DNA of 64,000 bases from Lamellibrachia satsuma (lineage: Eukaryota > Annelida > Polychaeta > Sabellida > Siboglinidae), in NCBI GenBank assembly GCA_033239005.1, contig BSQZ01000001.1, positions 19,547,000-19,610,999 of the forward strand, in the 5' to 3' direction. Shown here in pieces: positions 2,571-60,638 of this stretch. The notes beneath the pieces are model-generated. The model made no database searches. It saw only the letters and a program-made list of their open reading frames with translations, and was not told the origin of the DNA. Every line of letters starts with the position of its first letter. Positions within the stretch are counted from its first letter, which is position 1. Position numbers and translations under genes: made by a program.

Positions 2571-2810
2571 GCTCGGGACGTTCTTCTCTCCCGGTCTCCC
2601 CGTCTTCAACGTCTTCAAGCTCGTCGTCCTGATGTATGTCCGCAGCTGGGCCGTCATCGTGTGCAACATACCACCAGAGGGCGTGTTCCGGGCGTCGAGG
2701 TCCAATAATTTCTTCTACGCCCTCCTCATCCTGATGCTCTTCCTCGTCACCATCCCCATTCTATACATCATCCTGCAGCTGCAGCCCTCTTCCGACTGCG
2801 GGCCATTCAG
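2571..2810 (+). CDS. TMC exon: TMC signature and a transmembrane helix
   Basis: The acceptor is TATTTGCAG; the exon starts with one base that completes a split codon and ends CCATTCAG|GTGAGT. It encodes about 80 residues including RSWAVIVCNIPPEGVFRA and a helix of about 20 hydrophobic residues, ending at CGPF. Its 3' edge is the source of the 28-bp array that follows. Confidence 0.95.
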
Positions 2811-5800
2811 GTGAGTCCTCCGACTGTGGGCCGTTCAGGTGAGTCCTCCGACTGTGGGCCGTTCAGGTGAGTCCTCCGACTTTGAGCCGTTCAGGTGAGT
2901 TCACTGACTGTGGACCCTTCAGGTGAGTTTACTGACTGTGGACCGTTCAGTTGAGTCCACCTACTGTGTACCGTTCAGGTGAGTTCACTGATTGCGGGTC
3001 GTTCAAGTGAGTTAAACGACTGTGGGTCGTTCAGGTGAGTTCACTCACTGTGGGTCATTCAGGTGAGTCCATTGACTGTGGGCCGTTCAGGTGAGTTAAA
3101 GGAATGTGGGTCGTTCAGGTTAGTTCACTGACTGTGGACCGTTCAGTTGAGTCGACTGACTGTGGGCCGTTCATGTGAGTCGACTGACTGTGGGCCGTTC
3201 ATGTGAGTCGACTGACTATGGGCCGTTCGTGTGAGTCGACTGACTGTGGACCGTTCAGGTAAGTTCACTGACTGTGGACGGTTGATGTGAGTCCACCGAC
3301 TGTGGACCGTTCATGTGAGTCCACTGACTGTGGGTCGTTCAGGTGAGTTAACCGAATGTGGGTCGTTCAGGTGGGTTAACCGAATGTGGACCCTCCAGGT
3401 GAGTCCACTGACTGTGGACCGTTCAGGTGAGTTCACTGACTGTGGGCGGTCCAGGTGAGTTCACTAACTGTGGACCGTTCAGTTGAGTCCACTGACTGTG
3501 GACCGTTCAGGTGAGTCCACTGACTGTGGACCATTCAGGTGAGTTCACTGACTGTGGGTCGTTCAGGTGAGTCCATTGAATGTGGGCCGTTCAGGTGAGT
3601 TAACCGAATGTGGGTCGTTCAGGTGAGTTCACTGACTGTGGGTCGTTCAGGTGAGTCCACTGACTGTGGGCCGTCCAGGTGAGTTCACTGACTGTGGACC
3701 ATTCAGTTGAGTCGACTGACTGTGGACCGTTCATGTGAGTCGACTGACTGTGGGCCGTTCATGTGAGTCGACTGACTATGGGCCGTTCGTGTGAGTCGAC
3801 TGACTGTGGACCGTTCGTGTGAGTCCACCGACTGTGGATCGTTCAGGTAAGTTCACTGACTGTGGACCGTTGATGTGAGTCCACCGACTGTAGACCGTTC
3901 ATGTGAGTTCAGTGACTATGGTCCGTTCATGTGAGTCCACTGACTGTGGGTCGTTCAGGTGAGTTAACCGAATGTGGGTCGTTCAGGTGGGTTAACCGTA
4001 TGTGGACCCTCCAGGTGAGTCCATTGACTGTGGACCGTTCAGGTTAGTTCACTGACTGTGGGCCGTCCAGGTGAGTTCACTGACTGTGGACCGTTCAGTT
4101 GAGTCCACTGACTGTGGACCGTTCATGTGAGTCCACTGACTGTGGGCCGTTCATGTGAGTCCACTGACTGTGGGCCGTTCGACACGTGAACCCTTCTATT
4201 CCGTTTCCAGCATCTGTATTTAACGTATGAAACACAAACACCGTTACAGGCCATCACACCAGAGTCGAACACAACCATCGTTACAGGCAATCACACCAGA
4301 GTCGAACACAACCATCGTTACAGACCATCACACCAGAGTCGAACACAACCATCGTTACAGGCCATCACACCAGAGTCGAACACAACCATCATTAAACATG
4401 TTCAAAGTAATACTGCAACATACAACAATATGTGCCTAACATCAGCCTTCAAACACAACATCAGCCCTCAAACAAAATCAATACCAGACGTTGCGAATTT
4501 TATTTGAACAGAGACTACGAGCGGTCATATGAGATCTTGATGGCTACCATCAAGAAACACTTACCGAATTGGCTGGTGGTCATACTCGACTACATTTCCT
4601 CGGCTGGAGTCATCATACCGGTCTTTATACTGCTCGTGTAAGTCATTTTCGTTCTGCTTCAGTAATCGTAATTTATCACCTCATTTAGACCCAAACGTCG
4701 ATCTGTAACGTTTTATTGTACACACTTTATAATGGCTTTGTGATCGCAACGAATAATATAAATATAAATGTTTTCGTTTAATAAATAGTCAATACAGCTT
4801 AATAGAATCACGTCAGGTCAGAACACTTTAAGTCTATTAAGCGGATAACTCACTTAAGCGGCGCCTTTTAAAACAGCGGGAAAAGGGAACGATTTTGTCC
4901 CAACCATCGATGTATTTAGCATCTCGGAAAGGAGGCTCAAAGCTTAGTCACCCGTGACGGTGCCGTGTTTAGTCACCCGTGACGGCGCCGTGCTTAGTCA
5001 CCCGTGACGTTGCCGTACTTCGTGGCTTAAAATCATATCACAAAGATAATGTCACTTCCCCATATACCCAACTGGTCCCATTCGATACATTTAATTCTAT
5101 TAAATGGCTGATTCTGTTAAGTGGAGTTCATTGTACCGTCACTGCTTCATGAGTCCCGACTGTTGCACTTTCAGAATATCATCCTACTACCTCTTTGTGC
5201 TGAGCAAGTCCCTCAACCGAGCAAATGCAGACCTGATGGCTGCCTTACGCTACGTGAGTGGTCCTTCATATATTCCCCATCAAACACTTCCGTAGGATGC
5301 TCCCAGCATTGGCCAGTTTGGGTGAATCGTTTGTTGGGGTGTAAGGGTAATTTGTTTCGATGTCGTCCGTGCGCACACACACGTCTTTTATATTCTTCTT
5401 CGTTCCCACCAAAAACAGGGGTAGTAGACATTTTTTATTTTTAAGGTTTTCGTTTCAGCAGAACACAGAATCCCAAGTAAAAAACCACCGTGTAATTGGT
5501 TGGCGTGTCAAGGAGTGCTGGGCGTGATGATTATATACTTTTTACCACGGCCCCAGACGTGCCAAATCTGCTAAAAAGAACTCAAATCTCCTTCATTTTG
5601 AACCAATTCATGCCATTTTAACAGCCACATATAGTTACATGCTTTTAAAGCTTTCCCCCATTTTTGCCCTGTCAAAACTGATTTAAAATGCACCAAGCGG
5701 TAACATTGAAAAGTGGCCACAGAATTCATGGAATGTTGAAACCTTCATTAAACTAATTCCGCACCTACACTCTCCCGTTTATTTCACATCCACAAGAGAA

Positions 5801-6272: not shown

Positions 6273-8295
6273 GTGAGTGGTGCAGCACAGAACGCGTACT
6301 AGCTAGCCTCCATGCATCTTATTGCAATATGTTAAGATATGTTACGTTAGCTTGGTTGTCAGCTTTCATGCAACTGTGCGTTCAAAAGTAAACAATAAAC
6401 AGTAATTTAACATTTGACTAGGTGCTTCTGGAAGTATGTATTATAAGTCTTACGGATTTTCCTAAATTTTATGGTCTTACCAGAGAACGAGATATTCCTT
6501 GCGATTTTGTGCGGTTTTCACAAGGCCGTTTTGTATTATGGGATACAGGCCACGTTTATCAAACAATTTGAGGATAACACGTCTGAAGATTGACCCTCGC
6601 CGCAAATATTTTAGCTGTGCGCAGCCAGCTGCGCCTAAGTCTCGATTGATCCAATCAATAGATGTTATGGGCTCGTTTGCGATCTTGGGGATTTATAGTA
6701 CCAGGCGTGCACCACGATATAATGTGAGCTGTGTGTGATGTAATTCTACTGTACGTTGGTGTAGCTACTGCGTCGAAGACCAACGACCATCGGACCAGAT
6801 GAGCCAAAACCCCAGATGGCCAGCGGACATGGAATACACTGGCTTATCAAGTTCAACGAGTATTTATATGCGACTATGTGTAACCCACTCTCCGGGTTTG
6901 TCAATTTTGTGTTATATTTTAAACATATACAGCATGCAAGTTTCTACCACATTCAGCCGTTATAGGTAATATGTAAACAGGTTATTTAAAAAAAGTGCTA
7001 CTACTAATAATATTATAAGAACATCCAGAGAAATAACGTATAACTTCTGTAATAAGTTGTTACAACAGGCGCCAAGAGCAGTTTGGACGATTCTTGCCCG
7101 TTCTGCGTTTTCCATATAGAGTTTGTATGTACCTTCAAATGCACATCTCATGATCACGTCGTTGTTTGAATTTTTTAATTAGGTTTGGCCACTACTCACG
7201 GGCTTGCTTGGTCTTATGAACAGCATGGTTAAAACGTTAATATTCTTTCTAATTCAGGATTGCAATTTTATATACGAGGTTTACGAAGTTGTAAAGTAGA
7301 TGCTAGATTGTTTGTAATGACGTATAGATAGAGTATTCTAATGTGTGTCCTAACTGAATGGCAACGCGTGATGTAATTTTTCAATGGTTTTACCACAATT
7401 CACGATTGGTTATTTTGCTTGCTAAAATGTTTCAAATAAATTGCTATTTAATGCATGTAACTATGTTATGCTGATTTCACCTCTTTTTAGATGTACATTC
7501 ATTATTTCAAATGAGTACAAATACAAGAGACCACTTGCTATCAGAAATCTTAATCCAACACTGTTCTAAGGAGTGTGTATTGTAGTCACAAATATAACCA
7601 CATTATATTCAGGGATATCCTATTATCATCACACTCGATCATTTCCAAATCTGAACACCATTTTTCTCACATAACACATGATCATCATTCAGTACAATAA
7701 CTGAACATTTGGAACACATAAGGCCAGTGTTAAGAACACCTACATCATATATTTTGTGGCCACCAATTGTAAAGAACATTCATATTTAACAATAACGATG
7801 CCATCACGTTTCAGTTCGTAAAATGCACCAATTGGTACTGAATTATAACAAAATTAAATTGCCTTGTAAAACCACAATGAGAACTCATCTCAACAGCAAC
7901 AGTCTGTAGAGGTCAAACCAATTTTAAAGAAATAGTTTTTCTACGGACATTCCCACCCCGAGCTGTGTCTCATGATCTGTATGGACATAACGGTCAGTCA
8001 GTGACCTGACAACTGTCGACAGATATCATCTAACACTACATCTACTATCATACACAGTATCATTTTCTTCACTGTCACATACATCAACCAGTGTCTACAG
8101 AGAGTTGGATTCGATGATATCTACTAGATAGAGACCATCGCAGCAACATATATATTTTGTCAACGAGCTAGCATCAACACTGTTGGCTCCTCCGCAGTGG
8201 TGTACTTCCCAGTCATTGACCAATCGGTTGCTGCCTATAGCAAGACAGGTATGTGCAGGACTCTCAAGTCAACAACATCAATCTGAACACGACGA
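6273..8295. other. Region between the TMC exons and the fibrillarin stop
   Basis: About 2 kb of AT-rich sequence that must contain the 3' end of the TMC gene or its next intron, and the fibrillarin 3' untranslated region (read on the - strand). I could not identify a final TMC exon or a convincing polyadenylation signal. Confidence 0.5.
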
Positions 8296-8314: not shown

Positions 8315-11015
8315 CTGAAAGGCAAACAAATCTCAGTGTTAACACATATGGATTGCTTTCGAAAGTGTGTTTGCAAAATACTGGTCCTGCTTCACTGGCA
8401 CATTTTTATTAGGCACAGAGGAACGTATGGATGTACGCTTTGCAAATTATGCACAATGGACTCTTAACAGAATCAGTCGTTTAGTGCAATGAGATTTAAT
8501 GACTGGGACGGAATCATTCCCTATTCTTGTTGTATTAAAATGTGCCACTTAAGTGAATCAGCCGCTGAATAGAAACAAATTGCTCACACCTGTGATTCTA
8601 TAAGTGGAGTCCACTGTATCATAGACTGACGCAAAAACTACATACAGTGTTGGGCACGTAGCCCCAAGGGTTGTAGTTTCTGGGACAGGGAAAGTGACCA
8701 AGGAACAGGATCACACCTGTATACACATAAGCAGGCAATTCATTAAGGATTCTGGACATACAAAAATAGCAACTTTTTGTATTAATAAATATGCCGACTT
8801 TTGAGAAAACCCCAATACACAGCAGATGACACAAATACTATCTCAGCATTCACCTGTACTGTCCGACAACTACAGCGTGATCTCTCTCGAACGGCTCTAG
8901 CGTGATCTGTTCCCGTGGCTTGATCTTCTCCCCTCTCAGCTTGTTCACTTCGCTTGCAAACACGGCTTCTGCAGCGGCTGTCGAGTCAATGCAGTTCGCC
9001 TACAAAGAAACGTGTCACCTGTCAATGGCTTTATCAGGTGTCAGACTTCAGGTCAATTCCAATTCTGGAGTTGCAACTGGAGTTTTTTTAAAGTAATTGC
9101 AAATAGAGAAAATGTAATTGGTATTTTTCAATTACATCATGTAACGTTTTAATTCGATAAAATATAACGTGACACGTATTTCATAGTTGTTTACCACTGC
9201 AAACCATAATATACAGAAATTAAATAAAGCTGGTCTAAAATAGTTTTTTGGCGCTGAGTGTTTCTAAGGTTGCCCTTACTGTTATTTTGATATGGAATTG
9301 ATAATTGAAATATGTATTTTGTAAATGGTACACGTAACTGGTGTACAACTGGAACTGAAATAACATAATGGACCCAAGTCCGTCTCGTGTTCTATGGTGA
9401 CATTCACTTTTCCATTGCATTGACAAATGTTCACATCTGCAAGTCTGATGGCTTTGAATGCACTCAGGCATACCACTACAAGCAGATGACAGAAGTAGTT
9501 CAAAGTGGAAGATTCTTTATGCATTTATCACATACATATGATGCATTCGTAGCTCAAACATATTCCACTAGTACACACAAACCAGCAACAAAATGTCTAG
9601 AAAACATCTCTGAAGCTGGTTATAAATGCGTGTGTTTAAATGCAAGGAGCATAGTAAATAAGAAAAACGAATTAAACATTATGGTAGAAGATATTGACCC
9701 TCACATAACTGGTATAACCGAGTCATGGGCCAGCATAGACATAACAGATTCTGAATGAGGACTGACAGGATACGTAATGTTTAGGAGAGATCGAAAAGGA
9801 AAGAAACTATTCAGGCTTATGAAATAAAATTAGAAAGGGAAGCAGATTACGATGAAGCTGTTTGGTGCAAAACAGTTTCAAGAAATTCAACATTAACTAT
9901 TTGATTAGTTTACCGAAGTCCAAACTTAAATGAAGAGGATAACACAAATGGGAGATTTTAACCGTGGACACATATAATGGAAAGAGAATACAGGGGGTGA
10001 GGACCTACAATTTCTACTTTTAATCCAGGAGAGTTTCCTTACTCAGCACGTGCTAGAACCAACGAGGGGAGATAATGTATTAGATATAGTTTTGTCATCA
10101 CAAAAAGAATTAGTGGACAATGTAAAAATACATGAGCCATTGGGTAATAGTGATCATAATAAAATACATTTTGACATCAATGTAAAAGCAGAAAGTAAAT
10201 ATAAAAATACTTACAGGAGACACTTCCACAAAGGTAACTATGAAGATATGAGAAAATATGTAGCAAAGCTAGATTAGAATAACATGCTGATGAATAAGAC
10301 CGCAATTGAATGTCGGAACATTCTAAAATATGAAATTGAGAGTATCATTAATAAATACGTTCCCTTGAAAAAACAAGGAAAACGGTCTAGAAAGAAACAA
10401 TTGTCAAAAGAAGCTATTAGAAAAAAATAGTGTTTAAGCAAACTATGTGGAGGGTTTATAGGCATACCAGAAAGGATGAAGATTATGCAAATTACAAAGA
10501 GTCACTTAACCAAGCTACAACTGAAATTAGAAAATCTAAAAGAACCTTTGAAAAAAAATTGGCAGGTAATACAAAAATTACAGTAAGAGTTTCTATGCTT
10601 ACGTAAGGAGTAAACAGAAAGTTTGAGATAAGGTCGAACCTCTAGAAGACAGTGCATGAAATATAATATCACAAGGTTTTTAATGGTGGAAGACCTAAAT
10701 GGTTACTTCAATTCAGTGTTTACAGAGAGGATATTAGTTCATTACCAGTTCCAAATGCAAAATTTCAGAAGACAAATTCTTACTATTTAGGGCAGTTAAT
10801 TATAACTCCAGAAATGGTAGCTAAGAAAATAAAGGCAATGAAGGTTAATAAATCACCTGGAGTGGATGGAATTCCTCCAAAACTACTAATGGAAACAGTA
10901 CAAGAAATCAGTAAACCACTTGCAAGAGTGTTCAATGGCTGACTGACAGAAGACAGCATGTTGTAGTAGATGGACAGGTTTCAAACTGGAAATCAGTATC
11001 AGGACATTTATTATT

Positions 11016-11073
<58 letters not shown>

Positions 11074-14000
11074 ATATCAATGAGTTGGATGACAATATAA
11101 CAAGCAATGTACTGAAATTTGCGGATGACACAAGTGTGGTGATAAACAACATTTACAAAACTATCTAGACAAATTAGTAAATGGTCTGAAAATGTTATTC
11201 AATTTTTGGAAATGTAAAGGCCTACACACAGGACAAGGGATGTAAACTATAATATGGAGATACTGTTCTAGGTATCACTGTAAAAGAAAAGGACTTAGGA
11301 ATAACACTAAGTGCTGATATGAAAGTTTTAGAACAGTGTGCTATTGCAGCTTCAAGGGGTAATCAAATTCTTGGGTTGATTAGGATAAACATAACATAAA
11401 AGGAAAAAAGATAATTATGGGGTAAAAGCACTAAATCCGCTACAGGATAAATATTTAACCTGTAGTGGAGTCACTATTTCTAGAAAAATCCTCTTAAATA
11501 AACCCTCAACGCACTATCCTTTGCCGAGTGATTATCTAGATATTGTGCAGGATGTTTGGAACAGTAAAAAATAGTATTTCTGAGAGAAGTGAGAAACTTG
11601 TTTAAATTACCAAATGGCAAATCGACTGGTCAACAACATACATACTCTGTCTCACGATAACCACTGTAACTATTGACTGTTGTATGAATACGATACTGAG
11701 GCCTAAATTGCATCAGATTTCCTTCACCCTTGTAGGGTTCAGCTTACAGTTACATTTCACATTGGTGGCCATGTTACCGTTTTGCAAAATTATAAGAAAA
11801 CGTAACCATCAAAAATTCTAAGTCTTCACCAACCGCTGTCATCATCCCACTGAGATGCTGGTCGAGTTTTGTCAAAATTAGACATTTCTAACTCATGTAA
11901 TATGCCTGTATGTGCGATACCCCTCAATGTTTACCAATATTGGCATGAATTACGATGCATACGTGTCTAATCGCCAAAAAAATCACAAATATCCTTCCGC
12001 CTATTAAAATCATCTAAAAATCCACCATTTCACTCTCAACAGCTTCCACCAGCAAACCTGGCAATGTCTGTGCACAAATGCACTTATGTCAGATCGTATG
12101 AATTTTTTTAAAACGTGCTATATCCAAACTTACTAAGCCCTACATTCGTGTGTAACACACCAGGAAGTCTAACTGAGGCATGACCCCTGTAGCCTAGACT
12201 ACACCAACAGGGTAGAAGCCTACCTTTATAGAGATGACAACATGGCCGCCAGTTTTGAGGAAGTTGTGAGCGTTGATAGCAACGATTCGTGCCTGATCTG
12301 GCTGTGCAACATCAGCGAATATTGTGTCAACCATTCCTAGAACACACGGTACATAATATAAGCCAGTCAGTTCCAGTGTCGGATGTTCTTTTTAGCCATG
12401 CATTGCACAAATCTGCTTTGCATTGCATGATGGGATAGAAAGTAACACACATTCTCACTGTCATATTTTATTTGAACTAAACATGGCATAAGTTATCATA
12501 TATAAACTTTGTACCCTCTCATCTTTTTTCCTCATATTTTATAGGAACCAAATATGACATAAGTTTTGCTCACTCTTGACATACGATAAAAAACATGTAT
12601 TTTGTCACACGTATTAAAAAAAACTAAAAATTTCAACCTAAGAAAGGTTATGTCCAAATGTCTGGAACAAGTGGAAATATTGTGTTATATGTCCATAGGA
12701 CAGGAGTATATTTGTAGACCTGACCCAATAAAATGTTGTCTGTTGTACACAGAAGAAACTGAGAAGAATTTGCCATGTTGGTTTACTGAATGTGAAACTG
12801 CCCAGGCCAGTAAAATGGTTGTCTGATGGATATCCTGATACAATGAATTTTTTAACATATTTTTACCATATTTATCTTAAAAACTGTATTTATTTGTGAA
12901 GCACTGGCACATATGGCATGATATATGTTGAAAAATATATATATACAGGAATAAGACATTGCAAAAAAGACTTCTTATAGACATACTTTGTTAAATTTCT
13001 CTACATATAGTCCACTACTAAAGAGAAAACTTACCGACGAGCATCCTGTACTTGTGTGGGTGGCGAGCATCTTCAATGATGGGAATGATATTTGTTCGTT
13101 TCTTAGCCACGTTGATCAAGTCTCGACCACTGCGATGTGAGAACTCAACCGCATACACGAGGCCTTCCTATAACAGCAATATCACTCAAGTCAGATTGAC
13201 AAGAGTTCCATCTTTGTGGTCTCAATTCAGTACAAATACAATAGGTGTCATTTCTGGCAAGATGTGATTTCTGGAGCCAGAAATGAAAGAACTTAAAAGC
13301 TGCCTCCTCAATTCAATTATCCCATCATGAATCTGGTTAATTTATGATCAAATCTGCACTGTGTGAATACTTTAAGTAACATACAGTTGGTATTATAAAC
13401 AAGGGCATAAGTTTATTAAACCATCAAAAGAATTGACTTTGATCGTCAGGCGAGTTACTTGCAAAAGTGAATAGTCTCGATGAGATCACAAAAGTGTGCT
13501 GTTGGCTTTTAAATAGAGTTTTGGTTCAACCAAACTAAAATTAATTTATAATAATAAAACAGCATTTGTTTGCGACATAAATATAGCTGCTTTGGCCATT
13601 TAGTGGCTACTTACAATGCTAAGATGTGTATACATAACAAAACATCTCTGAAAAAGGTTATAGATGCGTATGTTTAAATGCAAGGAGCATAGTAAATAAG
13701 AAAAACGAATTAAACATTATGGTAGAAGATATTGACCCTCACATAATTGGTATAACTGAATCATGGGCCAACATAGATATAACAGATGCTGAATTAGGAC
13801 TGACAGGATACGTAATGTTTAGGAAAGATCGAATAGGAAGAAGGGGCGGGGGAGTTATTTTATATGTTAAAGAATCTATTCAGGCTTATGAAATAAAACT
13901 AGAAAGGGAAGCAGATTGCGATGAAGCTGTTTGGTGCAAAATTGTTTCAGGAAATTCAAAATTAACTGTTGGATTAGTTTACCGAAGTCCAAACATAAAC

Positions 14001-17000
14001 GAAGAGGACAACACAAAAATAAAAAACGCTATAAAGGAAGTTAGTAAAGGGGAATGTATCATAATGGGAGATTTTAACCATGGACACATACAATGGAATT
14101 CTCTAGAGAGCACAGGGATTGAGGATCAACAATTTCTATGTTTAATCCAGGATAGCTTTCTTACTCAGCACGTACTAGAACCAACCAGGGGAGAAAATGT
14201 ATTAGATATAGTTTTGTCATCACAAAAGAATTAGTGGACAATGTAAAAATATTTGAACCATTGGGTAATAGTGACCATAATCAAATACATTTTGACATCA
14301 ATGTAAAATCAGAAAGTAAAAATAAGAAAACGTACAAGAGAAACTTCCACAAAGGTAACTACAAAGATATGAGAAAATACTTAGCACAGCTAGATTGGAA
14401 TAACATGCTGATGAATAAGACTGCAATTGAATGTTGGAATATTCTAAAATATGAAATTGAGAGTATCATTGATAAATTTGTTCCCTTCCGAAAACAAGGA
14501 AAATGGTGTAGAAAGAAACACATGTCAAAAGAGGCAATTAGAAAAATAATGCTAAAACAAACTATGTGGAGGGTTTATAGGCGTACCAGAAAGGAAGAAG
14601 ACTATGCAAAATACAAAGAGGCACTTAATGCAGCTACAACTGAAATCAGACAATCTAAAAGAAGCTATGAGCAAAAACTGGCATGTAACATAAAAACTGA
14701 CAGCAAGAGTTTTTATGCATATGTCAGGAGTAAACAAAACGCAAGACAAGGTTGGACCTCTAGAAGACAGTGCTGGAAATATAATATCACAGGGGTTTTT
14801 AATGGCGGAAGACCTAAATGGTTACTTCAGTTCAGTGTTTACAAAAGAAGATATTAGTTCATTACCAGTTGCTGATGCTAAATTTCAGGGGACTAAATCT
14901 GACTATTTAGGACCGTTAGTTGTAACTCCAGAATTGGTAGCTAGGAAAATAAAGGCAATGAAGGATAACAAATCACCGGGAGTGGATGGGATTCCTCCAA
15001 AATTACTAATGGAAACAGTAGATCAAATCAGTATACCACTTGCAAGAGTATTCAACTTGTCATTAAAAGAGGGAGTTGTTCCGTTTGAATGGAAAGAAGC
15101 AAACATCATACCATTATTTAAAAAGGGTTCGAGAAATAAGTCAGAGAATTACAGACCAGTGAGTTTAACGTCAGTGATTTGTAAATTATTAGAAAGGTTA
15201 ATTAAAGACCATATGGTGGACTTCCTCGTTAAGCATAAATTATTAAATTCATCTCAACATGGATTCCTTAAAGCGAGGTCATGCTTAACAAATGTGTTAT
15301 GTTTTTTGGAAGAAATCACTAAGTGGATAGACGAGGGATCGCCAGTAGATATTATCTACTTAGATTTTCAGAAAGCTTTTGACAAAGTGCCACATCAAAG
15401 ATTGCTACTTAAATTAAAAGCCCATGGTATCGGGGATAGCATAACTGACTGGATAGAACAATGGCTGACTGACAGAAGACAACGAGTTGTAGTAGATGGC
15501 GAAGTTTCAAATTGGAAATCGGTTTTGAGTGGGGTACCTCAAGGATCAGTATTAGGACCTATATTATTCTTAATTTATATCAATGACTTGGACGACAGTA
15601 TAACAAGTAACGTACTGAAATTTGGACGACACAAAACTGTTTAGAAAGGTTAATACTGATGGTGATAAACAACATTTACAAAACGATCTAGACAGATTAG
15701 TGAAATGGTCTGAGAAATGGCAGATGCTGTTCAATTTTGGGAAATGTAAATGCCTACATACAGGACATGGGAACTTGAATGTAAACTATAAAATGGGAGC
15801 TACTGTTCTTGGTACTACTGTAAAAGAAAAGGACTTAGGAGTTACAATAAGCGCTGATATGAAAGTTTCAGAGCAGTGTGGTATTGCAGCTTCAAAGGGT
15901 AATCAAATTCTTGGATTGATTAGAAGAAACATAACATACAAGGGAAAAAAGTTAATTATACCTCTTTATAAAGCAATAGTTAGACCTCATTTAGAATACT
16001 GTATACAAGCATGGAGACCATATCGTAAGAAGGATATAGATACGCTTGAACGCATACAAAGGAGAGCAACTAAAACGATTCCAGAACTTAGAGACCTTAG
16101 TTATGAAGAACGCCTGAAAGAATGTGGTTTAACAACTCTAGAGACAAGGAGGTTAAGAGGAGATCAGATTGAAGTTTTTAAGATATTGAATGGGTATGAA
16201 AATATTGATAGAAATATGTTTTTCTCACTCAAGAAGGATAGCAGAACTAGAGGACATGAGGTAAAATTAGTAAAGGATCAATGTAGATTGGACATCAGGA
16301 AGCACTCGTTCTCACAGAGGACAGTAAATGAATGGAACAAACTGTCTACAGATTGTGTAACTGCTAGCAGCGTGAATATGTTTAAAAACAAGGTTGACAC
16401 ATATATCAGGAGGGCGGGTTATAAGTAGGTGAACATTGTTGGACTCTCGATAAGCCAATGGCTTCCTTGTCCACTTGCCATCTGGGCCTTTGGCTTGGAT
16501 GGCAAATCTTGTTAAATCTTGTTAAATACATGAATTTTAGATAAAGTATAATAAAATAATATTGACATAAAAATAAATTGTTTGTCCGATGATTTCATCA
16601 AAACTAAATGATTTCATCAAAACTAAATGATTTAGCATTTTGTAAGCTAGAAGTTTGATTTGTGAAATGAGCCTGAAACTAGATGACATTTTTTATTGTG
16701 GTACTAACTTTAATACTTGGAAAACATTCTAAAACTTGAATTCACAAGTTTTACATGCAATACTTACAGGCCCAACAATATCAGCAACATGGCTGACCGT
16801 AGTTCCTGATGCTGCCCCCAGGTAGAGTACCTTCTGGCCCGGCGCCATATGAATGTTGTCAACTCCGCCCAAAATGGCCGCCGCCAACTTGGAGCGAAAA
16901 GGATTCCATGCTCGGTATTCTAACTTTATTTCATTTTCCTTCAAGAAAAATTAAACCATTGCAGATGAAATGTGACGAAGCAAAATAAAAACAAGCTACC

Positions 17001-20000
17001 ACTTCAGAAACAGGTGTTAGTCTTAATTGTTTAGGGGCGACAGAAATCACATTTACACGCATTCATGAAATAAAGTAATTCTGTCCACCAGTGGTCGACA
17101 AGTAGACTCCACATTGTTAGTAAAACTACTTCATTGCACACTGCACACTGCCCTCATACATTAAGATAGTTTTACTTGAAATGTTTAAATACTGCTAAAT
17201 CTTTACAAAATTTGCAGTGATGGGACTACAGAGAAGTGGCAATGATGCACAGGAATTATTAAGTATGAAAGAAGACACAATGTGTGTTATAAATATTTAC
17301 TCTTGTCACATATTGACTGAAATGCATCCAAAATGGAATAAACATAATGCTTCCTTCCTAGTCATAGCTCATACCTTTACCAACCTCCTAGTCATAGCTC
17401 ATACCTTTACCTACCTTCCTAGTCATAGCTCATACCTTTACCTACCTTCCTAGTCATAGCACACTGGTTGATTCTGTCTACTGGGAATTAATCTATTTAT
17501 ATGTTCATGTGTATTTACAAATCAGAACTGCTACAGAACTTACAGAAGACGCGATAAACATCAAAGTTCACAATTTACTTATACAAGCAGTTTAACCACA
17601 CCTACCTCTACGACAATCTTCTTCTCTCCGTAGACAACCTCTCCTGGCACCAAGTTCTTCGTCACTAAAACGTCCTCTTTACCCCGAGCAATGAAAACAC
17701 CTGCAAGAAACAGCCACATCCACACATCAGACCTCATGACTTGAGGTGCACAGTCACTCTCACGGCCCACCTCTCGACCCATCCTCAATGGGCAAATTAC
17801 AAATGCACCCCGCACTTTCAAACCAGATTTTTATACAAAACATGTATTATGATATAATTCCATCCACAAAACCATGGCTGCAAGCAATATGTTAAACTAA
17901 ATTGGAATTAAAAAAAATGATATCTTTATTATGAGTTCCTGTTGCAATCATGCTGTACAAAATGTCCAACTCAATATCCATTAAAAATAATCCTTGATTA
18001 TGGAATGCAAGACGATTTGTCATTCTTACGTTTTATTGCAGAGAACGCGAAACCACTAGAGTCAATGCCAAAAATTGCTTGGTGTGTTGCACAGCTAGCT
18101 AACTTTTGCAAGTAGATTGATGACATTATTGTCTGTTATGTAGCAAATATTATAGAACATGGTGATAAATCATGTTGGCACAAGGAAAGTTTGTTTCTCA
18201 ATAATGTGGTACTATATGAGCAAACTCACCCTTGTGTTTGTGAGGTTCCACGATGACCTTCCGTCCTCCTCGCATGCCACCTGGAGGCAAAAAATGTAAA
18301 TGACCATATATGTATAGTATGAGGAATAGGGTCAAATTTGTATTGTATTTGAAATTTCAAATACTTTTTAAATATTCCAGAGTCACTCATCGTCTCCATG
18401 GTTGACTTCTGTATGACGTCACCCACCTCTTAATGGGCGCTGCAAGCAGCTGTAAATGTCTACCGCGGAGACTGGTGGAAGCAGTGTTCTACCTTAAACC
18501 CTAAAAGATTCTGGTCTGCCAGACCAGCAACGTCCAAAAGTTCCTGGTCTGGAAGCCAACGGCACAATGCGCGAGCGCAAACGGTCTGTATAACAACATA
18601 TTAACCACAAGCAGGTCAAAAATTGTACTGACAGGTGATTACTGTATGTCTGGTAGGCAGTAAGTGTTATTCTGATCATGTGTATGCTATTTGAGTTATC
18701 AGCTGACTTATGTTACTGGTAACTGGTTTAAAACTTACTGGGCTTGTACTATAAAAGGTTTGTAAATTTTGCAATAAAAATTATCAAATAAAGAGGTTTT
18801 TCTACTGTTCATTCATTTTATGTACGTGAACCAGCGGTCCAACCGTCCAGGACCCTTCTAAAACCATTTCTGGAATGTTAGTCAAAGTCAGACTAAATTG
18901 CAGCTTTTCGTAGCTCTACTAGTCTAGGTGGCCGTTTAAAATTTTCATGTGTACCCTGTATTGTCTGAATACAAATGATCACCGGGTACATTGCTTTCGG
19001 TAACTGCTTTATGCGACACAGCAATAACAACAGAAGATCCTTTATGCGACACAGCAATAACAACAGAAGACCCCTCTTAACCCGGTTTCTTTTTCAAACT
19101 GTTGAAACTGGTTAAGTCAGATGTTGTTAGTATCATTAGCGTTTATCAGTATCGTATCATGTTTTTTTCTAGATTTTGGCAGTAGATTTCGGCTCGGTGA
19201 CATTCCCCCAAAAACAGCATGGTATGTTTAGCCACGAGAACTGCACCAGTGGTGACGCTTTGATTCAATTACAAAAATCAATATTTAATGTGCGCTCTTT
19301 GTGAGTGGCAAGTTTTGCAATAAAAATGTTCAGGTGAACATGTGACCGTAAAAAACGCATTTTTAAACAGCTTGTTTCTTCCGGCGGCCAATTTTGATGA
19401 TCAGCTGGTGAATACTGCCGTACAATGCTGTATTTTGTCCAGAAAAGTAGACGGTCATGCGGGCCACTAACTCAAAAAAGTTACAGAAAACAAGCATTGG
19501 ATACAATTTTGAGTGTATACATTTGTAGTCATGGTCAATGGAGTAAAATTCGCTTGCTAACTGTAGAAATGTCGCGTCAGAGAATTTTGTTTGAACACTG
19601 TGTTTTCAGTACACAATTACAGCTGTGAAATGTCACAAATTGTTTCTTTACAACTATGTATTGTTATATACCCTGATACACATTGTATCATGACACAAAT
19701 AGCATGCATACCATCACGGCTTATTGTATCACTACCAACATCAATATAAACCTATGTGCATTTAGCTCCAACATGTGTAAATTAATTTATGCAACTTACC
19801 AGATCCATAAATTTTTTTATGAAATAATCAATGCAGGTCTTTGCTAAACTTGCCCTGGGTGTATGAGACTACACCTGAACTATTTGGCAAAATAAATTGA
19901 ATTACTCCGCGCTAGCCAGCCAATTACAGCATAGCGGAAAGCAGTTCAAACCGGAGCCAGTAGCTCGAAACTTTCACTCCTGATCCAATCGCCGCATAGC

Positions 20001-20838
20001 GAAGTTTTTGAAATTGTCTCTCGAAATTAATGTTCTTCCCAAAGTGGCTGCGTGATAAGCAGTGCACATTGTAATAAAGAACTTTATTATTTGGCCCATT
20101 TTAATTCTCTACTATGTCGGACTTGCATTGGTTGTTGCATAAATATCAAATATATAGTACAACTTAACATACTTATCTAACCTGCAGGAAATATTTGAAA
20201 AGAACTTGGATGACATTTGAAAAGGGTTTCGATTTGCACCATTTAAAATGTAATTGTATTTGAAGAAATACAAAGTATTTGCACTTAAAAAAAATATTTT
20301 CAAATGTATGCATGGCATCCAATTGAACACATGAAGAAAGACAGATTATATCAAACCCTTTCTTAATTAAAAATTTACATATGTAGCAATAAAATGTTAC
20401 ACTTAGCAACCGTATGATGACATCATCTTGTATAATGTGTGCAAGTATGCATGTGTTTTGACAACAAAATATAAAATACTTACCCCTGCCACCACCGAAT
20501 CCACCTCTGCCCCGGCCGCCACCCCGGCCACCACCCCTAGGACTGAATCCTGCAAAATATGTTGTTTTTTATACAAAAAAAACATGTCCAAAGTTTAACA
20601 CACAAAAATATCAAGTTCCAATGAAGATATTTGGCTCACAAACAATTCAATAATTGTCACATGGTACAAAACAAATAGTGGGTGACAGACTTACCCCTTC
20701 CACCTCCACGACCCCCTCTGAAGCCCCCACGGTCACCTCCTCCGCGCCCCCCTTTGAAGCCCCCACGGTCACCACCACGACCTCTGAAGCCACCCCCTCC
20801 ACGTCCCCCGAACCCCCCTCGTCCACGGGGTGAATATT
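8296..20838 (-). CDS. FBL: Fibrillarin, rRNA 2'-O-methyltransferase (nearly complete)
   Basis: Nine exons on the - strand, in transcript order: 20838-20695, 20549-20484, 18280-18230, 17700-17606, 16938-16768, 13167-13035, 12336-12224, 8999-8854, 8314-8296. Every junction is GT-AG and in phase, giving about 312 residues; human fibrillarin has 321. Fibrillarin is the SAM-dependent methyltransferase of box C/D snoRNPs in the nucleolus, methylating rRNA ribose 2'-hydroxyls and histone H2A glutamine. Visible parts in order: a GAR region of GGF/RGG repeats, the KVIVEPHKH segment, [34 protein letters not shown], the SAM-binding loop [23 protein letters not shown], the IEDARHP and DVAQPDQ motifs, [16 protein letters not shown], and [15 protein letters not shown] ending RAPPKK-stop. 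Exon 1 (the Met and a few residues before YSPRG) is not found. Introns carry two antisense CR1 copies. Confidence 0.97.
8854..8999 (-). CDS. FBL: FBL exon: C-terminal methyltransferase end
   Basis: Encodes a segment beginning [18 protein letters not shown] and ending [15 protein letters not shown]. The acceptor is CTTTGTAG and the donor GTGAAT. The conserved ERDHAVVVG ending identifies fibrillarin. Confidence 0.96.
9597..11420 (+). mobile_element. CR1-type LINE, copy A (ORF2 only, old and deleted)
   Basis: Closely related to copy B through the endonuclease and reverse-transcriptase regions: peptides [19 protein letters not shown], then [18 protein letters not shown], then [16 protein letters not shown] are readable. 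It lacks the N-terminal start, has internal deletions (for example most of the reverse-transcriptase palm between 10938 and 10940) and many stops, and is interrupted at 11019-11072 by a TA tract. It sits in a fibrillarin intron in the opposite orientation to the gene, as copy B does. Confidence 0.9.
11019..11072. repeat. (TA)n tract inside CR1 copy A
   Basis: A TA run of about 52 bases replaces the sequence TTAATTTATATCAATG found at the same place in copies B and C (codons of the LIYIND motif). Confidence 0.93.
11735..12190. repeat. Dispersed repeat shared with 30190-30650
   Basis: About 450 bp aligns in the same orientation, at roughly 65-75% by eye, with 30190-30650; shared words include AAAATTCT, CCATCAAAAATTCT and GCCCTACATTCGTGTG. 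It ends about 30 bases from the fibrillarin exon at 12224. No coding potential; the family is unknown. Confidence 0.75.
12224..12336 (-). CDS. FBL: FBL exon: DVAQPDQ motif
   Basis: Encodes [20 protein letters not shown] and, at its end, GGHVVISIK. The acceptor is GTTCTAG and the donor GTAGGC. This is the conserved core strand region of the methyltransferase fold. Confidence 0.96.
12337..13034. other. FBL intron between exons at 12224 and 13035
   Basis: AT-rich intron without a recognised repeat. I searched the - strand by eye for box C (RTGATGA) and box D (CTGA) pairs of an intronic snoRNA and saw none that convinced me. Confidence 0.5.
13035..13167 (-). CDS. FBL: FBL exon: [13 protein letters not shown] segment
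   Basis: Encodes [20 protein letters not shown] and [18 protein letters not shown]. The donor is GTAAG and the acceptor TTATAG. The segment holds the acidic residue of the strand that binds the ribose of SAM. Confidence 0.97.
13640..16530 (+). mobile_element. CR1-type LINE, copy B (near-complete ORF2, 5'-truncated)
   Basis: One reverse-transcriptase protein is readable across four reading frames: 13643-14234, 14234-14750, 14750-15620 and 15622-16428. The order is an apurinic endonuclease domain ([35 protein letters not shown]), a linker, then reverse transcriptase ([58 protein letters not shown]), then the thumb and C-terminal region. Frameshifts include a lost A near 14228, a 2-bp loss near 14742 and a 2-bp loss at about 15625 that destroys the FADD catalytic motif. 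The 3' end has the CR1 tail with repeated TCTTGTTAAA. It lies in a fibrillarin intron, opposite to the gene. Confidence 0.95.
16768..16938 (-). CDS. FBL: FBL exon: SAM-binding motif [10 protein letters not shown]
   Basis: Encodes 57 codons beginning [17 protein letters not shown] and ending [18 protein letters not shown]. It holds the glycine-rich SAM loop and the [17 protein letters not shown] signature of fibrillarin. Confidence 0.98.
17357..17462. repeat. About 30-bp tandem repeat, about 3.5 units
   Basis: Repeated units of CCTAGTCATAGCTCATACCT followed by TTACCWACCT in a fibrillarin intron. Confidence 0.9.
17606..17700 (-). CDS. FBL: FBL exon: [15 protein letters not shown]
   Basis: Begins with two bases that complete a glycine codon, then encodes [20 protein letters not shown] and [11 protein letters not shown]. 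The acceptor is TTCTTGCAG and the donor GTAGGT. Confidence 0.97.
18230..18280 (-). CDS. FBL: FBL exon: junction of GAR region and core
   Basis: 51 bases encoding [16 protein letters not shown] and a split glycine. The acceptor is TTGCCTCCAG and the donor GTGAG. It links the RGG-rich tail to the N-terminal part of the core domain. Confidence 0.95.
18281..20483. other. FBL intron, 2.2 kb
   Basis: Mostly unremarkable AT-rich sequence. It contains a 30-bp direct duplication at about 19010-19070 (TTTATGCGACACAGCAATAA). No RNA gene or mobile element recognised. Confidence 0.5.
20484..20549 (-). CDS. FBL: FBL exon: GAR region, second part
   Basis: 66 bases encoding [20 protein letters not shown] and RG. 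FSPRGG is a typical fibrillarin N-terminal motif, here repeated after YSPRGRGG in the preceding exon. The acceptor is TTTTGCAG and the donor GTAAG. Confidence 0.95.
20695..20838 (-). CDS. FBL: FBL exon: GAR region, first part
   Basis: 144 bases encoding [20 protein letters not shown] and then repeated DRGGF(K/R)GGRGG units, an RGG substrate of arginine methylation. The acceptor is TGTTGTAG and the donor GTAAG. The first codon is split (xAA), so a small exon 1 ending in phase 1 must lie upstream (at higher coordinates). Confidence 0.95.
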
Positions 20839-20908
20839 CTACAACAGAGAAGTGACAGTGAACTGATTTGTTGTCTCATAAGCAGTACCACCAGAGTAGA
20901 CAGATTGG

Positions 20909-30650: not shown

Positions 30651-31825
30651 AGGAGTTGGCGCTATGCTAATCCTAAGAGACGTGTTAACAATTACCTTGT
30701 GGCCAACTGGCGTACGCTTGTGCGGGCGATAGCATACGTATACACATGTCAACTATTCGTCATTCGCACGGAGTCTGCGTCATTTTGACATAGCCAATAA
30801 ATCTCCGTCCCGTGGATTGAAATCTCCGTTAAAATCGCGGTTCGATTACACAATCATCCAGGCACTGCATGGCACAGAGGTGCTAATTAAGTAACATTGC
30901 ACCAAAAGCGGTAAATCCACCGTTTTTCATGATGTGAGGGCGGTTGATAAGGATCTGGCGTCACGTACGGTCGTGAACGGGTAGTGTGGAAGGGAGTTTC
31001 CATCCTATCAGAATAATTATATTAATTTAATCTTGATGCACTTATGTTGCATCTTCTAGTGGTGGTTTGGTGGTATATTCGGATTCGAAATTAGTACGTG
31101 CGGTGTTTTAACCTTGAAATTGCGGTTTGGCGGTAGATTTTTACTCGAAAGGTGTAGAGCAGTAGATTTTGTAGAAGGCCCTATATTTTTACCGCTAAAG
31201 TGGTAGACTTGGTACGTGCCTCTGGCACTGCCGGCATACATACCAGGAACACGCAGTTACTACGTGTGTTCAAATGTTGATAATTAATTGCGTTATTGAT
31301 CGCCTCGTCCAGGAAGCTCAGCAAAGATCATGTAAGATATTTGGACGAAAAAAAACAGGTCGACGAAAGACTGGCTACAGTCTCACAGTGCACGTAAAGG
31401 CACAAAATAATGTTTTCAAGATGTACTTGAAATCAAGTGAACGGTGTGAAGGAAATGCAGGTCTTGTTTCTTATGCGCATATCAAATGGCTGGTGTATGG
31501 ACAACACTGAAAATGATAATATAAATCGCTAGCCGTTGCAATGTCAACACGATAGTTATAAAACAAATCTAAGTATATCATAACTGCCACGGTTCGCTTC
31601 TTTGGCGAGACCACCGACGCAGACCTGCCGCCAAAGCAGCACGGCCTCGATACTGTCAGGGGTGCTTTGGCCGCGCGGACTTCGCCAACAGTTGTTCGCC
31701 ATGTTGTTAAAGCTAATTAGTTGCTCCATAGCAACGCAGACTCTTAGCATTTTCCATGGATAACTGCCCTTCTCCGAGTAAAGGTGAACTGCAGCTCAGA
31801 AGCAAACTAATTAAAACTAAATTGT

Positions 31826-33043
31826 ATGATGGCGCCATGCAAACGGCAGTTAAAGGCCACAAGGCACTTAATTTGTGGCAGTTGCAGTAACTGGGTGGAC
31901 TTCGTCAAGCCTGGGTGCGCGAAGTCCTGGGCTGAGGTCCAGGCAGATAGTTTTAGTTTTGAGTGTAGGGGATGTACGAAGATAAAGGAACTAGAGGTGG
32001 AGTTGGAAGAGCTGAGGCTGCTCGTTGTGGCAATGGTGGGAAGGGAAAAGGGGGGTTGTGCCAGTAGTTCCCGTGGGGGAACAGTAGATGATAAAGTGGG
32101 GAAAGACCCAAGAGATGCTAGGGAGAGCTCACCGCAGCCTGGGAGGAAGCTGAGAAGAGGGAAGGTGACAGGTTGTAGGGAGACAGGACGTAAGGAGACT
32201 GGAAGGAAAGGAACGGGAGGGAAGACAACCGGAGTGAAGGAGAGGGGAGTAGGGGAGACAGGAGGGAAGGGGAAGGGAGTGGGGGAGACGGGAGGGAAAA
32301 CAACCGGAGTGAACGAGAGGGGAGTGGGAGAGACGGGAGGGAAAACAACCGGAGTGAAGGAGAGGGGAGTGGGAGAGACAAGAGCAAAGGAGTGGGAAGT
32401 GGGGGAGACAGGAGGGAAGGGGTCAGGACAGAATGTGAAGGAGGGGATCGAACGGAAGAGTTATTCTGCAGCAGTGATAGAGGGGGTGAGGAAGAGAGCA
32501 AGGGTGTTTGTGGGGGATTCGATAGTTAGGAAGACCGACAGAGTCTTAAACAAGGGAGATGATGTGGTGGTCTGCTTTCCTGGAGCCAAAATAGAGGCGA
32601 TAGCTGAGAGTGTAAAAAACATCGTAGGCTCGGGTAAGGGTGGATCTGTTTTAGTACACGTAGGGACACATAACGTAGAGAGGGAGGGTACAACTGCCAT
32701 AGTTAGGAAATATAGGCAGTTGGTCAGAACACTAAAACAGACGCGGGTTGAGGAGGTAATACTGTCAGGGATTTTACCTGTAATGGGCAGGAGGGGTCAC
32801 AAATATCGAAATTGTCGGGGGATGGCAATTAACATGTTAGTCCAGAAGCTATGTAGGGAAGAGGAAGTTGGATTTGTGGATTTATGGGGAAGTTTTGTTG
32901 GGAGGGCTGATATGTACATGAAGGATGGGCTTCATTTAAATGGAAAGGGGGCGGCAGTATTCGCAGACAAACTTTCAGCAGCAGTAGATAGTGACTTGGG
33001 TACAATGACAAATATTTTTGGAAGTAAACATTCTTTAAACTAG
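31826..33043 (+). CDS. CR1 ORF1 protein: PHD-like finger, repeat linker, SGNH esterase
   Basis: 405 residues, uninterrupted. Residues about 17-55 hold paired cysteines (CGSC ... FECRGC) typical of the PHD-like finger of CR1 ORF1 proteins, followed by a short leucine-rich helix. Residues about 110-215 are a low-complexity linker of repeated TGVKERGVGETGGK-type units. The C-terminal half is an SGNH/GDSL hydrolase: GDSIVRK (block I, serine), a block III that reads GTHN rather than GTND, and DGLHLNGKG (block V, Asp and His). Such esterases are known in CR1 and related LINE ORF1 proteins; their role in transposition (membrane or lipid binding) is unproven. Start chosen at the double Met 31826. Confidence 0.88.
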   Translation: MMAPCKRQLKATRHLICGSCSNWVDFVKPGCAKSWAEVQADSFSFECRGCTKIKELEVELEELRLLVVAMVGREKGGCASSSRGGTVDDKVGKDPRDARESSPQPGRKLRRGKVTGCRETGRKETGRKGTGGKTTGVKERGVGETGGKGKGVGETGGKTTGVNERGVGETGGKTTGVKERGVGETRAKEWEVGETGGKGSGQNVKEGIERKSYSAAVIEGVRKRARVFVGDSIVRKTDRVLNKGDDVVVCFPGAKIEAIAESVKNIVGSGKGGSVLVHVGTHNVEREGTTAIVRKYRQLVRTLKQTRVEEVILSGILPVMGRRGHKYRNCRGMAINMLVQKLCREEEVGFVDLWGSFVGRADMYMKDGLHLNGKGAAVFADKLSAAVDSDLGTMTNIFGSKHSLN

Positions 33044-33068
33044 AAATGCAGGGGGGGGGTACCTAGAG

Positions 33069-35664
33069 GTGTCTCAAGCAGAACAAGAGGCCATTAGCAC
33101 AGATAAACCAATATCAAATCATCCGAAAAACATCTCTGAAAAAGGTTATAGATGCGTATGTTTAAATGCAAGGAGCATAGTAAATAAGAAAAACGAATTA
33201 AACATTATGGTAGAAGATATTGACCCTCACATAATTGGTATAACTGAATCATGGGCCAACATAGATATAACAGATGCTGAATTAGGACTGACAGGATATG
33301 TAATGTTTAGGAAAGATCGAATAGGAAGAAGGGGCGGGGGAGTTATTTTGTATGTTAAAGAATCTATTCAGGCTTATGAAATAAAACTAGAAAGGGAAGC
33401 AGATTGCGATGAAGCTGTTTGGTGCAAAATTGTTTCAGGAAATTCAAAATTAACTATTGGATTAGTTTACCGAAGTCCAAAAATAAACGAAGAGGACAAC
33501 ACAAAAAACGCTATAAAGGAAGTTAGTAAAGGGGAATGTATCATAATGGGAGATTTTAACCATGGACACATATAATGCAATTCTCTAGAGAGCACAGGGA
33601 TTGAGGACCAACAATTTCTATTTTTAATCCAGGATAGCTTTCTTACTCAGCACGTACTAGAACCAACTAGGGGAGAAAATGTATTAGATATAGTTTTGTC
33701 ATCACAAAAAGAATTAGTGGACAATGTAAAAATATTTGAACCATTAGGTAATAGTAACCATAATCAAATACATTTTGACATCAATGTAAAATCAGAAAGT
33801 AAAAATAAGAAAACGTACAAGAGAAACTTCCACAAAGGTAACTACAAAGATATGAGAAAATACTTAGCAAAGCTAGATTGGAATAACATGCTGATGAATA
33901 AGACCGCAATTGAATGTTGGAATATTCTAAAATATGAAATTGAGAGTATCATCGATAAATTTGTTCCCTTCCAAAAACAAGGAAGGTGTAGAAAGAAACA
34001 CTTGTCAAAAGAGGCTATTAGAAAAATAATGCTAAAACAAACTATGTGGAGGGTTTATAGGCGTACCAGAAAGGAAGAAGACTATGCAAAATACAAAGAG
34101 GCACTTAATGCAGCTACAACTGAAATCAGACAATCTAAAAGAAGTTATGAGCAAAAACTAGCATGTAACATAAAAAATGACAGCAAGAGTTTTTATGCAT
34201 ATGTCAGGAGTAAACAAAACGTACAAGACAAGGTTGGACCTCTAGAAGACAGTGCTGGAAATATAATATAAATCTGATTATTTAGGTCCGTTAATTGTAA
34301 CTCCAGAATTGGTAGCTAAGAAAATAAAGGCAATGAAGGATAACAAATCACCGGGAGTGGATGGGATTCCTCCAAAATTACTAATGGAAACAGTAGAACA
34401 AATCAGTATACCACTTACAAAGTATTCAACTTGTCATTAAAAGAGGGAGTTGTTCCGTTTGAATGGAAAGAAGCAAACATCATACCATTATTTAAAAAGG
34501 GTTCGAGAAATAAGTCAGAGAATTACAGACCAGTGAGTTTTTTGGAAGAAATCACTAAGTGAATAGATGTGGGATCGCCAGTAGATATTATCTACTTAGA
34601 TTTTCAGAAAGCTTTTGACAAAGTGCCACATCAAAGATTACTACTTAAATTAAAAGCCCATGGTATCGGGGATAACATAACTGACTGGATAGAACAATGG
34701 CTGACTGACAGAAGACAATGAGTTGTAGTAGAAGGAGAAGTTTTAAATTGGAAATCGGTTTTGAGTGGGGTACCTCAAGGATCAGTATTAGGACCTATAT
34801 TATTCTTAATTTATATCAATGACTTGGACGACAGTATAACAAGTAACATACTGAAATTTGCGGATGACACAAAACTGTTTAGAAAGGTTAATACTGATGG
34901 TGATAAACAACATTTACAAAACGATCTAGACAGATTAGTGAAATGGTCTGAGAAATGGCAGATGCTGTTCAATTTTGGGAAATGTAAATGCCTACATACA
35001 GGACATGGGAACTTGAAAGTAAACTATAAAATGGGAGATACTGCTCTGGGTACTACTGTAAAAGAAAAGGACTTAGGAGTTACAATAAGCGCTGATATGA
35101 AAGTTTCAGAGCAGTGTGGTATTGCAGCTTCAAAGGGTAATCAAATTCTTGGATTGATTAGAAGAAACATAACATACAAGGAAAAAAATTATTTATACCT
35201 CTTTATAAAGCAATAGTAAGACCTCATTTAGAATACTGTATACAAGCATGGAGACCATATCGTAAGAAGGATATAGATACGCTTGAACGCATACAAAGGA
35301 GAGCAACTAAAATGATTCCAGAACTTAGAGACCTTAGTTATGAAGAACGCCTGAAAGAATGTGGTTTAACAATTCTAGAGACAAGGAGGTTAAGAGGAGA
35401 TCAGGTTGAAGTTTTAAGATATTGAATGGGTATGAAAATGTTGATAGAAATATGTTTTTCTCACTCAAGAAGGATAGCAGAACTAGAGGACATGAGGTAA
35501 AATTAGTAAAGGATCAATGTAGATTGGACATCAGGAAGCACTCGTTCTCACAGAGGACAATAAATGAATGGAACAAATTGTCTACAGATTGTGTAACTGC
35601 TAGCAGCGTGAATATGTTTAAAAACAAGGTTGACACATATCTCAGGAGGGCGGGTTATAAGTAG
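33069..35664 (+). pseudogene. CR1 ORF2 (endonuclease/reverse transcriptase), broken
   Basis: Starts MSQAEQEAISTDK and reads through the endonuclease motifs up to GDFNHGHI, then stops (TAA). It resumes with [12 protein letters not shown], keeps [12 protein letters not shown] and, after two deletions, [23 protein letters not shown] and the catalytic FADD in LKFADDTKLF, and ends RRAGYK-stop. The FADD motif is intact here but frameshifted away in copy B. Confidence 0.92.
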
Positions 35665-60418: not shown

Positions 60419-60477
60419 CCACCTCACCCGGTAGCTCGGCGGTTAGAGCGCCGGACTGTCGATTGAGAGGACGGGGG
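60419..60477 (+). mobile_element. tRNA-derived SINE head, copy 2
   Basis: CCGGTAGCTCGGCGGTTAGAGC is an A-box-like segment and GACTGTCGATTGAGAGGACG matches the SINE at 63886 (GACTGTCGATCGAGAGGACG). The following B-box region has been expanded into a tandem array, and the SINE body is missing. Confidence 0.78.
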
Positions 60478-60638
60478 TACAAGTCCACCTTATGCCGGGG
60501 TACAAGTCCACCTTATGCCGAGGTTCAAGTCCACCTGATGCAGGAGTACAGGTCCACCTTCTGCCAGGGTACAAGTCCACCTTATGCCGAGGTTCAAGTC
60601 CACCTGCTGCAGGGGTACAGGTCCACCTTCTGCCAGGG
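60478..60638 (+). repeat. 23-bp minisatellite x 7 derived from the SINE B-box
   Basis: Seven indel-free units of the form TACAAGTCCACCTTATGCCG plus GGG. Three unit types occur in the order A A B C A B C, so a 69-bp block was duplicated. Type B contains a good Pol III B-box, GGTTCAAGTCC (60522-60532 and 60591-60601). Confidence 0.95.

Follow-up and report, generated by a model that had tools for sequence, protein, structure and literature searches.

The TMC gene and its intron

The window, as the term is used here, is the whole 64-kb stretch of DNA analysed, positions 19547000-19610999 of contig C1. Near its start lie three exons of a TMC gene (Table 1). When exons 2571-2810, 4512-4637 and 5175-5253 are spliced together they remain open and in frame, and the resulting protein matches TMC-1 (7usw) with E 5.2e-38 and TMC-2 (8tkp) with E 3.6e-35, both alignments crossing the CGPF|R junction gap-free. 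The three-exon splice also scores 42.8 bits against the Pfam TMC profile, PF07810, for which the cut-off is 25. Homology upholds the TMC exon and the junction between 2810 and 4512 that the original prediction had proposed. The residues CGPF, with which the first of these exons ends, were found in TMC-1, in TMC-2 and in all six (6/6) of the homologues returned.

The same junction can be compared with TMC genes elsewhere. A protein search of the organism's own genome gives eight TMC matches, of which three are the exons above and five lie on two other contigs. The five paralogue matches run unbroken through the junction residues, and stop only at the end of the next exon; therefore, these paralogues are without this intron. 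In four of the six protein-database homologues, on the other hand, TMC similarity is lost directly after CGPF (as judged by eye), from which we infer that the intron is present in other animals too. Compared in this way, the host intron probably predates the array that it contains.

Table 1. Features of the TMC locus, with positions counted from the first letter of the window, and the two arrays found at the ROCK locus.
Feature	Position	Strand	Description and basis
TMC exon	2571..2810	+	240 nt, ends ...TGC GGG CCA TTC AG|, phase 2; taken as repeat source; spliced homology, Pfam TMC
Native junction segment that was duplicated	2789..2816	+	22 nt exon + GTGAGT; 19/22 plus GTGAGT match to unit 1
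Minisatellite, 49 x 28 bp	2811..4182	+	consensus GTGAGTCCACTGACTGTGGGCCGTTCAG; 80.7% of the 1701-bp intron
Exact block, 90 nt	3167..3256	+	recurs 20 units (560 bp) on; segmental duplication within the array; exact repeat
Exact block, 76 nt	3307..3382	+	recurs 22 units (616 bp) on; segmental duplication within the array; exact repeat
Second, unrelated tandem array of the same TMC intron, 37 bp x 4.4	4231..4394	+	Tandem Repeats Finder
Next TMC exon	4512..4637	+	acceptor ...TTTGAACAG|AGACTACGAG, donor CTCGT|GTAAGT; gap-free protein alignment across CGPF|R
Further TMC exon	5175..5253	+	ISSYYLFVLSKSLNRANADLMAALRY; donor TAC|GTGAGT; own-genome protein match 19552169-19552252 of the contig; splice checked
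Two junction-spanning tandem arrays at ROCK donors	L027:4592-5837 and 7661-7892 (contig C7, 1500001-1510000)

The remainder of the window holds several other features. Upstream of the TMC exon, two GC-rich stretches of GGGCC(G) repeats, recognized by eye at 1-250 and 1260-1510, lie on either side of an (AT)n tract and a short open reading frame, an arrangement that looks like an inserted element. A fibrillarin-like gene, identified by eye, lies downstream of TMC on the minus strand (about 8860-20870), and in it a 36-bp repeat at 20703-20773 codes for RGG. One LINE-like element is present in several copies, some degenerate and some fuller, at about 9600-11400, 13638-16428 and 33039-35664; the element contains an RVT_1 match within 14694-15644 (E 1.3e-25), and its third copy follows a frame that resembles GDSL lipase at 31814-33043 (37.6 bits, cut-off 32.9). 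A 27-bp minisatellite of 88.7 copies at 56047-58439, whose unit length is divisible by three, carries on its minus strand two long open frames (451 and 389 codons) in which nine residues recur, and which may be coding. Finally, two tRNA-like stretches at 60420-60480 and 63890-63960 resemble the head of a SINE by eye; a scan of the 64-kb window against Rfam gave no matches, these stretches included.

The exon as the source of the array

When the intron is cut in register from position 2811, it yields 49 adjoining 28-mers that extend to 4182 without an indel. Tandem Repeats Finder reports the array at 2794-4180, with a period of 28, 49.5 copies and 0% indels. The exon copy at 2783-2810 shares the register of the array, and may be numbered unit 0. 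Unit 1 shares 19 of the last 22 bases of the exon, and then reads GTGAGT, whereas the six exon bases 5' of those 22 (before 2789) match GTGAGT at only one position in six. Since the match drops to 1/6 upstream of 2789, the copied piece comprises 22 nt of exon and 6 nt of intron. Both the composition of the unit, put earlier at about 22 exon-end bases joined to GTGAGT, and the count of 49 units without an indel are borne out.

We also searched the 735-Mb genome (279 contigs) for a 23-mer of the unit, allowing up to two mismatches. At least 31 matches were found, that is, the native junction and 30 within the array, these counts being lower bounds; the reversed control pattern gave none.

Unit 1 and the exon differ at three positions, all of which are synonymous third positions (TCT/TCC, TGC/TGT, CCA/CCG). 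Counted over the 22 exon bases, units 1-3 agree with the exon at 19, 19 and 17, and units 4-49 at 12-17. To judge from the presence of CGPF in its homologues, from the synonymous differences, and from the nearest units being most alike to it, the TMC exon is the source of the repeat. The exact 90-nt and 76-nt blocks that recur 20 and 22 units further along the array (Table 1) count for its having grown by exchange, and such internal block duplications are consistent with length polymorphism or somatic instability.

The second array of the same intron has a 37-bp unit that holds the acceptor-like sequence GTTACAG|GCC, which is no obvious copy of the real acceptor.

Junction arrays elsewhere in the genome

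In order to survey the genome for this architecture, we sampled contigs 1-20 at a fixed position, which gave 20 stretches of 10 kb each. In one of the 20 (L027), a gene for the kinase ROCK has junction arrays at two of its five donors. When four exons from the stretch are spliced, they match ROCK1 with E 5.7e-114 over 182 residues, and a fifth ROCK exon was recognized upstream by eye (L027:3845-3919). At the first junction, the exon tail ending in CATCG|GTCAGT is followed by copies of itself at a spacing of 62-66 bp, making about 20 with the native one included (19 matches including the native, along with one copy that has a deletion inside a 123-bp step). Here the exon and the array consensus differ at two sites, both of which are again synonymous (TTT/TTC, CAT/CAC). 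At the second junction, a 58-bp unit ending in CACTGACAG|GTA is present in 3.9 copies.

The larger ROCK unit also includes a stretch rich in pyrimidines that has TAG and ACAG, and each of its copies thus resembles a 29-nt micro-pseudoexon with both splice signals.

Most donors have no such array. Kinase exon ends gave none over a donor in 20 stretches of 500 bases, these being the first 20 of 139 listed matches (profile end <=255, open frame <=150 codons); on visual inspection, a donor is present in about 15 of the 20, while L044, L045 and L051 have no exon end and L049 and L060 are ambiguous, so that the effective n is smaller. Nor is there a junction array at either of two SHOC2 donors, at any of four fibrillarin donors, at any of eight other TMC donors, or at the remaining three of the five ROCK donors, where SHOC2, fibrillarin and the upstream TMC exons of L020 were recognized by eye. 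Outside the TMC array, 2 of the 39 places examined therefore have a junction array, both of them in the ROCK gene. The habit of forming junction arrays is real, and uncommon per junction. Because the same architecture occurs in the unrelated ROCK gene, it speaks for a mutational habit rather than a function in TMC.

Tandem arrays in general were surveyed over 304,000 bases, which take in the window and its 40-kb upstream flank. There are 85 of them (period 9-120, at least 3 copies, a few of them resembling microsatellites), covering 24,460 bases. The heptamer GGTRAGT appears in the consensus unit of only one of the 85, which is the TMC array itself; since the ROCK arrays have other donors, enrichment for GGTRAGT says little about the class of minisatellites called mirages, described below. 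Among the open frames listed beside tandem arrays, only SHOC2 and zinc-finger coding repeats came up by eye.

Comparison with known systems

Minisatellites at exon-intron boundaries, named mirages, have been described in the globin and Adh3 genes of amphioxus, where Adh3 data and RT-PCR suggest no interference with regular splicing (PMC3087553). The lancelet PGBD5 gene carries similar repeats, and troponin C is mentioned in this connection too (PMC3902484). As in the TMC array, the repeat units of the amphioxus mirages (Adh3, BflGb6/BflGb9, troponin C, PGBD5) span an exon-intron boundary and duplicate a splice signal beside the authentic junction (PMC3087553, PMC3902484). Among the mirages both boundaries of exons are affected, and the units range over 10-160 bp (PMC3087553, PMC3902484), with 10-72 bp reported for Adh3 and about 150-160 bp for the globins (PMC3087553). 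Copy number differs: the TMC array has 49 units, as compared with 6 and 3 in the haplotypes of BflGb6 (PMC3087553).

The units of the TMC array hold both sides of the boundary together with the splice signal, and the array adjoins the authentic junction. Recurrence of the pattern in another gene of the same genome is found in ROCK, at two donor junctions. By these features of its sequence, the TMC array is best read as a long further case of the mirage-type minisatellite already described. In the literature searched, the term mirage is used in this sense for lancelets alone. As to whether the present genome is that of a lancelet, a search of it for the GFP family, run with no positive control, gave no match, and COX1 was likewise missing from the assembly. 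Boundary minisatellites as such go beyond lancelets, since they are reported in human genes (PMC2812944).

In the human case, genes in segmental duplications contain minisatellites that have been expanding recently, some of them at an exon-intron boundary, and these may form novel introns (PMC2812944). The human units resemble that of the TMC array in being short, averaging 30 bp, but their copies average four, and they mostly lengthen exons or make introns via cryptic splice sites (PMC2812944). They often go with alternative transcripts, and long donor arrays inside an existing intron are absent from the description given of them (PMC2812944). Tandem duplication of AGGT proto-splice sites, discussed as a route to new introns (PMC3087553), shares with the TMC array the production of extra splice sites from a duplicated AG|GT; in TMC, however, the duplication lies inside an existing intron.

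Two further reports concern minisatellites within introns. Earthworm metallothionein has intron minisatellites, as well as exon-4 duplications that are missing from the transcript (PMC12783039), and an abalone TSSK1-like gene has an intron minisatellite with a 27-bp unit and a variable copy number (PMC6905558). Like the TMC array, these repeats lie in introns of coding genes; as reported there, they are not described as copies of an exon-intron junction (PMC12783039, PMC6905558).

Donor sites and the case for a function

Each boundary between units repeats the donor of the exon, so we ask how well these donors have been kept. The array has 48 internal boundaries, and 22 of them read CAGGTGAGT, which is identical to the native site. 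In all, 24 boundaries have CAGGTRAGT and 43 keep GT, which is gone at the remaining 5/48. When the native donor is counted in, CAGGTRAGT is present at 25 of 49 sites; on either count, the statement that about half of the units keep CAG|GTRAGT is correct. The predicted duplex with the end of U1 is -11.9 kcal/mol for CAGGTGAGT, as compared with -5.3 for CATGTGAGT, which is the commonest decayed form of the donor in the array (9 sites).

The original prediction suggested that these repeated donors might serve as a decoy, a U1 snRNP platform or a poison-exon switch. On such a reading they would tune the output of TMC, and three observations could be taken in its favour. The first is the supply of consensus donors itself, for beyond the 25 in the array and at the native site there is no other CAGGTRAGT 9-mer on either strand of the 64-kb window. 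The second is conservation: of the 28 circular six-base windows of the unit, the one comprising the GTGAGT columns is the least variable (0.069 vs 0.207 elsewhere), and the donor 9-mer is the least variable nine-base window. As one-in-28 evidence, this low variability would hint weakly at constraint. The third is that use of a later donor creates a stop codon, at 2812-2814, in each of the six cases tried (k = 1, 2, 3, 10, 25, 48), just as had been stated of AGG TGA.

The stop, however, comes of itself: a phase-2 intron that follows AG and starts with GTRA always reads AGG TAA or AGG TGA when a later donor is chosen. Because it is automatic for any such intron, we rule out the stop codon as a designed poison element. 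Half of the TMC donors have decayed, moreover, and the ROCK array is without conservation specific to the donor (0.077 for GTCAGT, 0.071 for the exonic 27 nt), while the recurrence of the architecture in that unrelated gene also goes against a function particular to TMC. We therefore regard a functional donor array as quite unlikely. Of the original interpretation, what stands is that a real TMC junction was copied 49 times over, that many of the donors are nearly identical, and that later choices make a stop; the decoy, the U1 platform and the poison switch are left unsupported.

RNA structure was considered separately as a means of masking the donors of the array, and was dropped. In a first fold of 2571-3300, the native donor was the most open of 17 (0.57), which was not borne out by local folding of all 49, where the native donor ranks 4-10 in mean openness and 17-36 in full opening. 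When the first 20 units were compared with 60 column-permuted arrays, no unusual RNA structure was found (z +0.33). RNA folding gives no clear reason for the choice of the native donor.

A second reading of the boundaries treats the array as a string of introns. The TMC exon has AG as its last two bases, so that a unit begins with GT and closes with AG, and every boundary joins a 3' to a 5' splice site, in effect an exon of zero length. A splice from the wrong donor might then be corrected by a second splice, which would remove whole units without trace. GT at the start and AG at the end are both present in 31/49 units, CTNAY is present in 31/49, and GT, CTNAY and AG occur in order in 17/49; the 58-bp ROCK unit also runs GTA...CAG. 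The pyrimidine content ahead of the boundaries has a mean of 0.50 and a maximum of 0.625, only a little below the values of the real acceptors (0.56 at 4511, 0.625 at 2570), so that this measure barely separates the two. The boundaries are without a clear polypyrimidine tract. Introns are usually longer than 28 nt, so several units would have to leave together, and in the larger ROCK unit the donor is not preceded by AG. Recursive splice sites, or ratchet points, have the same joined CAG|GTRAGT as the TMC unit boundaries; the array differs from them in its want of a clear polypyrimidine tract, and in being 49-fold where ratchet points are single. A search for literature combining recursive splicing with repeats returned none. 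We give little credence to such self-correction; were it true, arrays of this kind would be self-correcting and safe to expand.

Tandem arrays are error-prone, and one globin mirage is described as aberrantly assembled in a supplement legend (PMC3087553), but an inflated copy number or a misassembly is very improbable here, given that the units differ (only 1/48 adjacent pairs is identical), that the array lies inside a 34.6-Mb contig of a 279-contig assembly, and that independent arrays occur in ROCK.

Probable origin and persistence of the array

We consider it likely that the TMC array is a mirage-type minisatellite, formed by tandem duplication and unequal exchange, which the gene tolerates, its first donor probably being used and errors probably going to nonsense-mediated decay (NMD). 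The seed would have been one tandem duplication over the end of the TMC exon and its donor, that is, over 22 nt of exon and 6 nt of intron. From this seed, slippage and unequal exchange would have extended the array further into the intron, with subsequent duplications placing copies about 20 units apart. Purifying selection would keep the coding copy fixed, while the intronic copies would drift and many of their donors decay.

In such an array, the donor most likely to be used is the 5'-most one, at the edge of the real exon. A pre-mRNA spliced from a later donor would meet an immediate stop and would probably be removed by NMD; NMD has been argued to provide new Drosophila introns with a shelter for imperfect splicing (PMC2809761). 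Because the products of later donors are probably cleared in this way, the array may be tolerated rather than used, and would have no selected function.

Two of the results above go against parts of this account. The donor columns are the least variable of the TMC unit, a hint of constraint that is not repeated in ROCK. At 37 of the 39 other places there is no array, and both positives fall in one gene.

Significance

Most work on how one 5' splice site is chosen when several are identical uses engineered duplicates. The TMC intron constitutes a natural test of this choice, in which the native donor is accompanied by 24 consensus copies (22 of them identical 9-mers) at multiples of 28 bp. The two further junction arrays of ROCK, in the same genome, add cases from which a rule of donor choice could be drawn. 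If the host is not a lancelet, then mirage minisatellites would extend beyond the cases that we found under that name.
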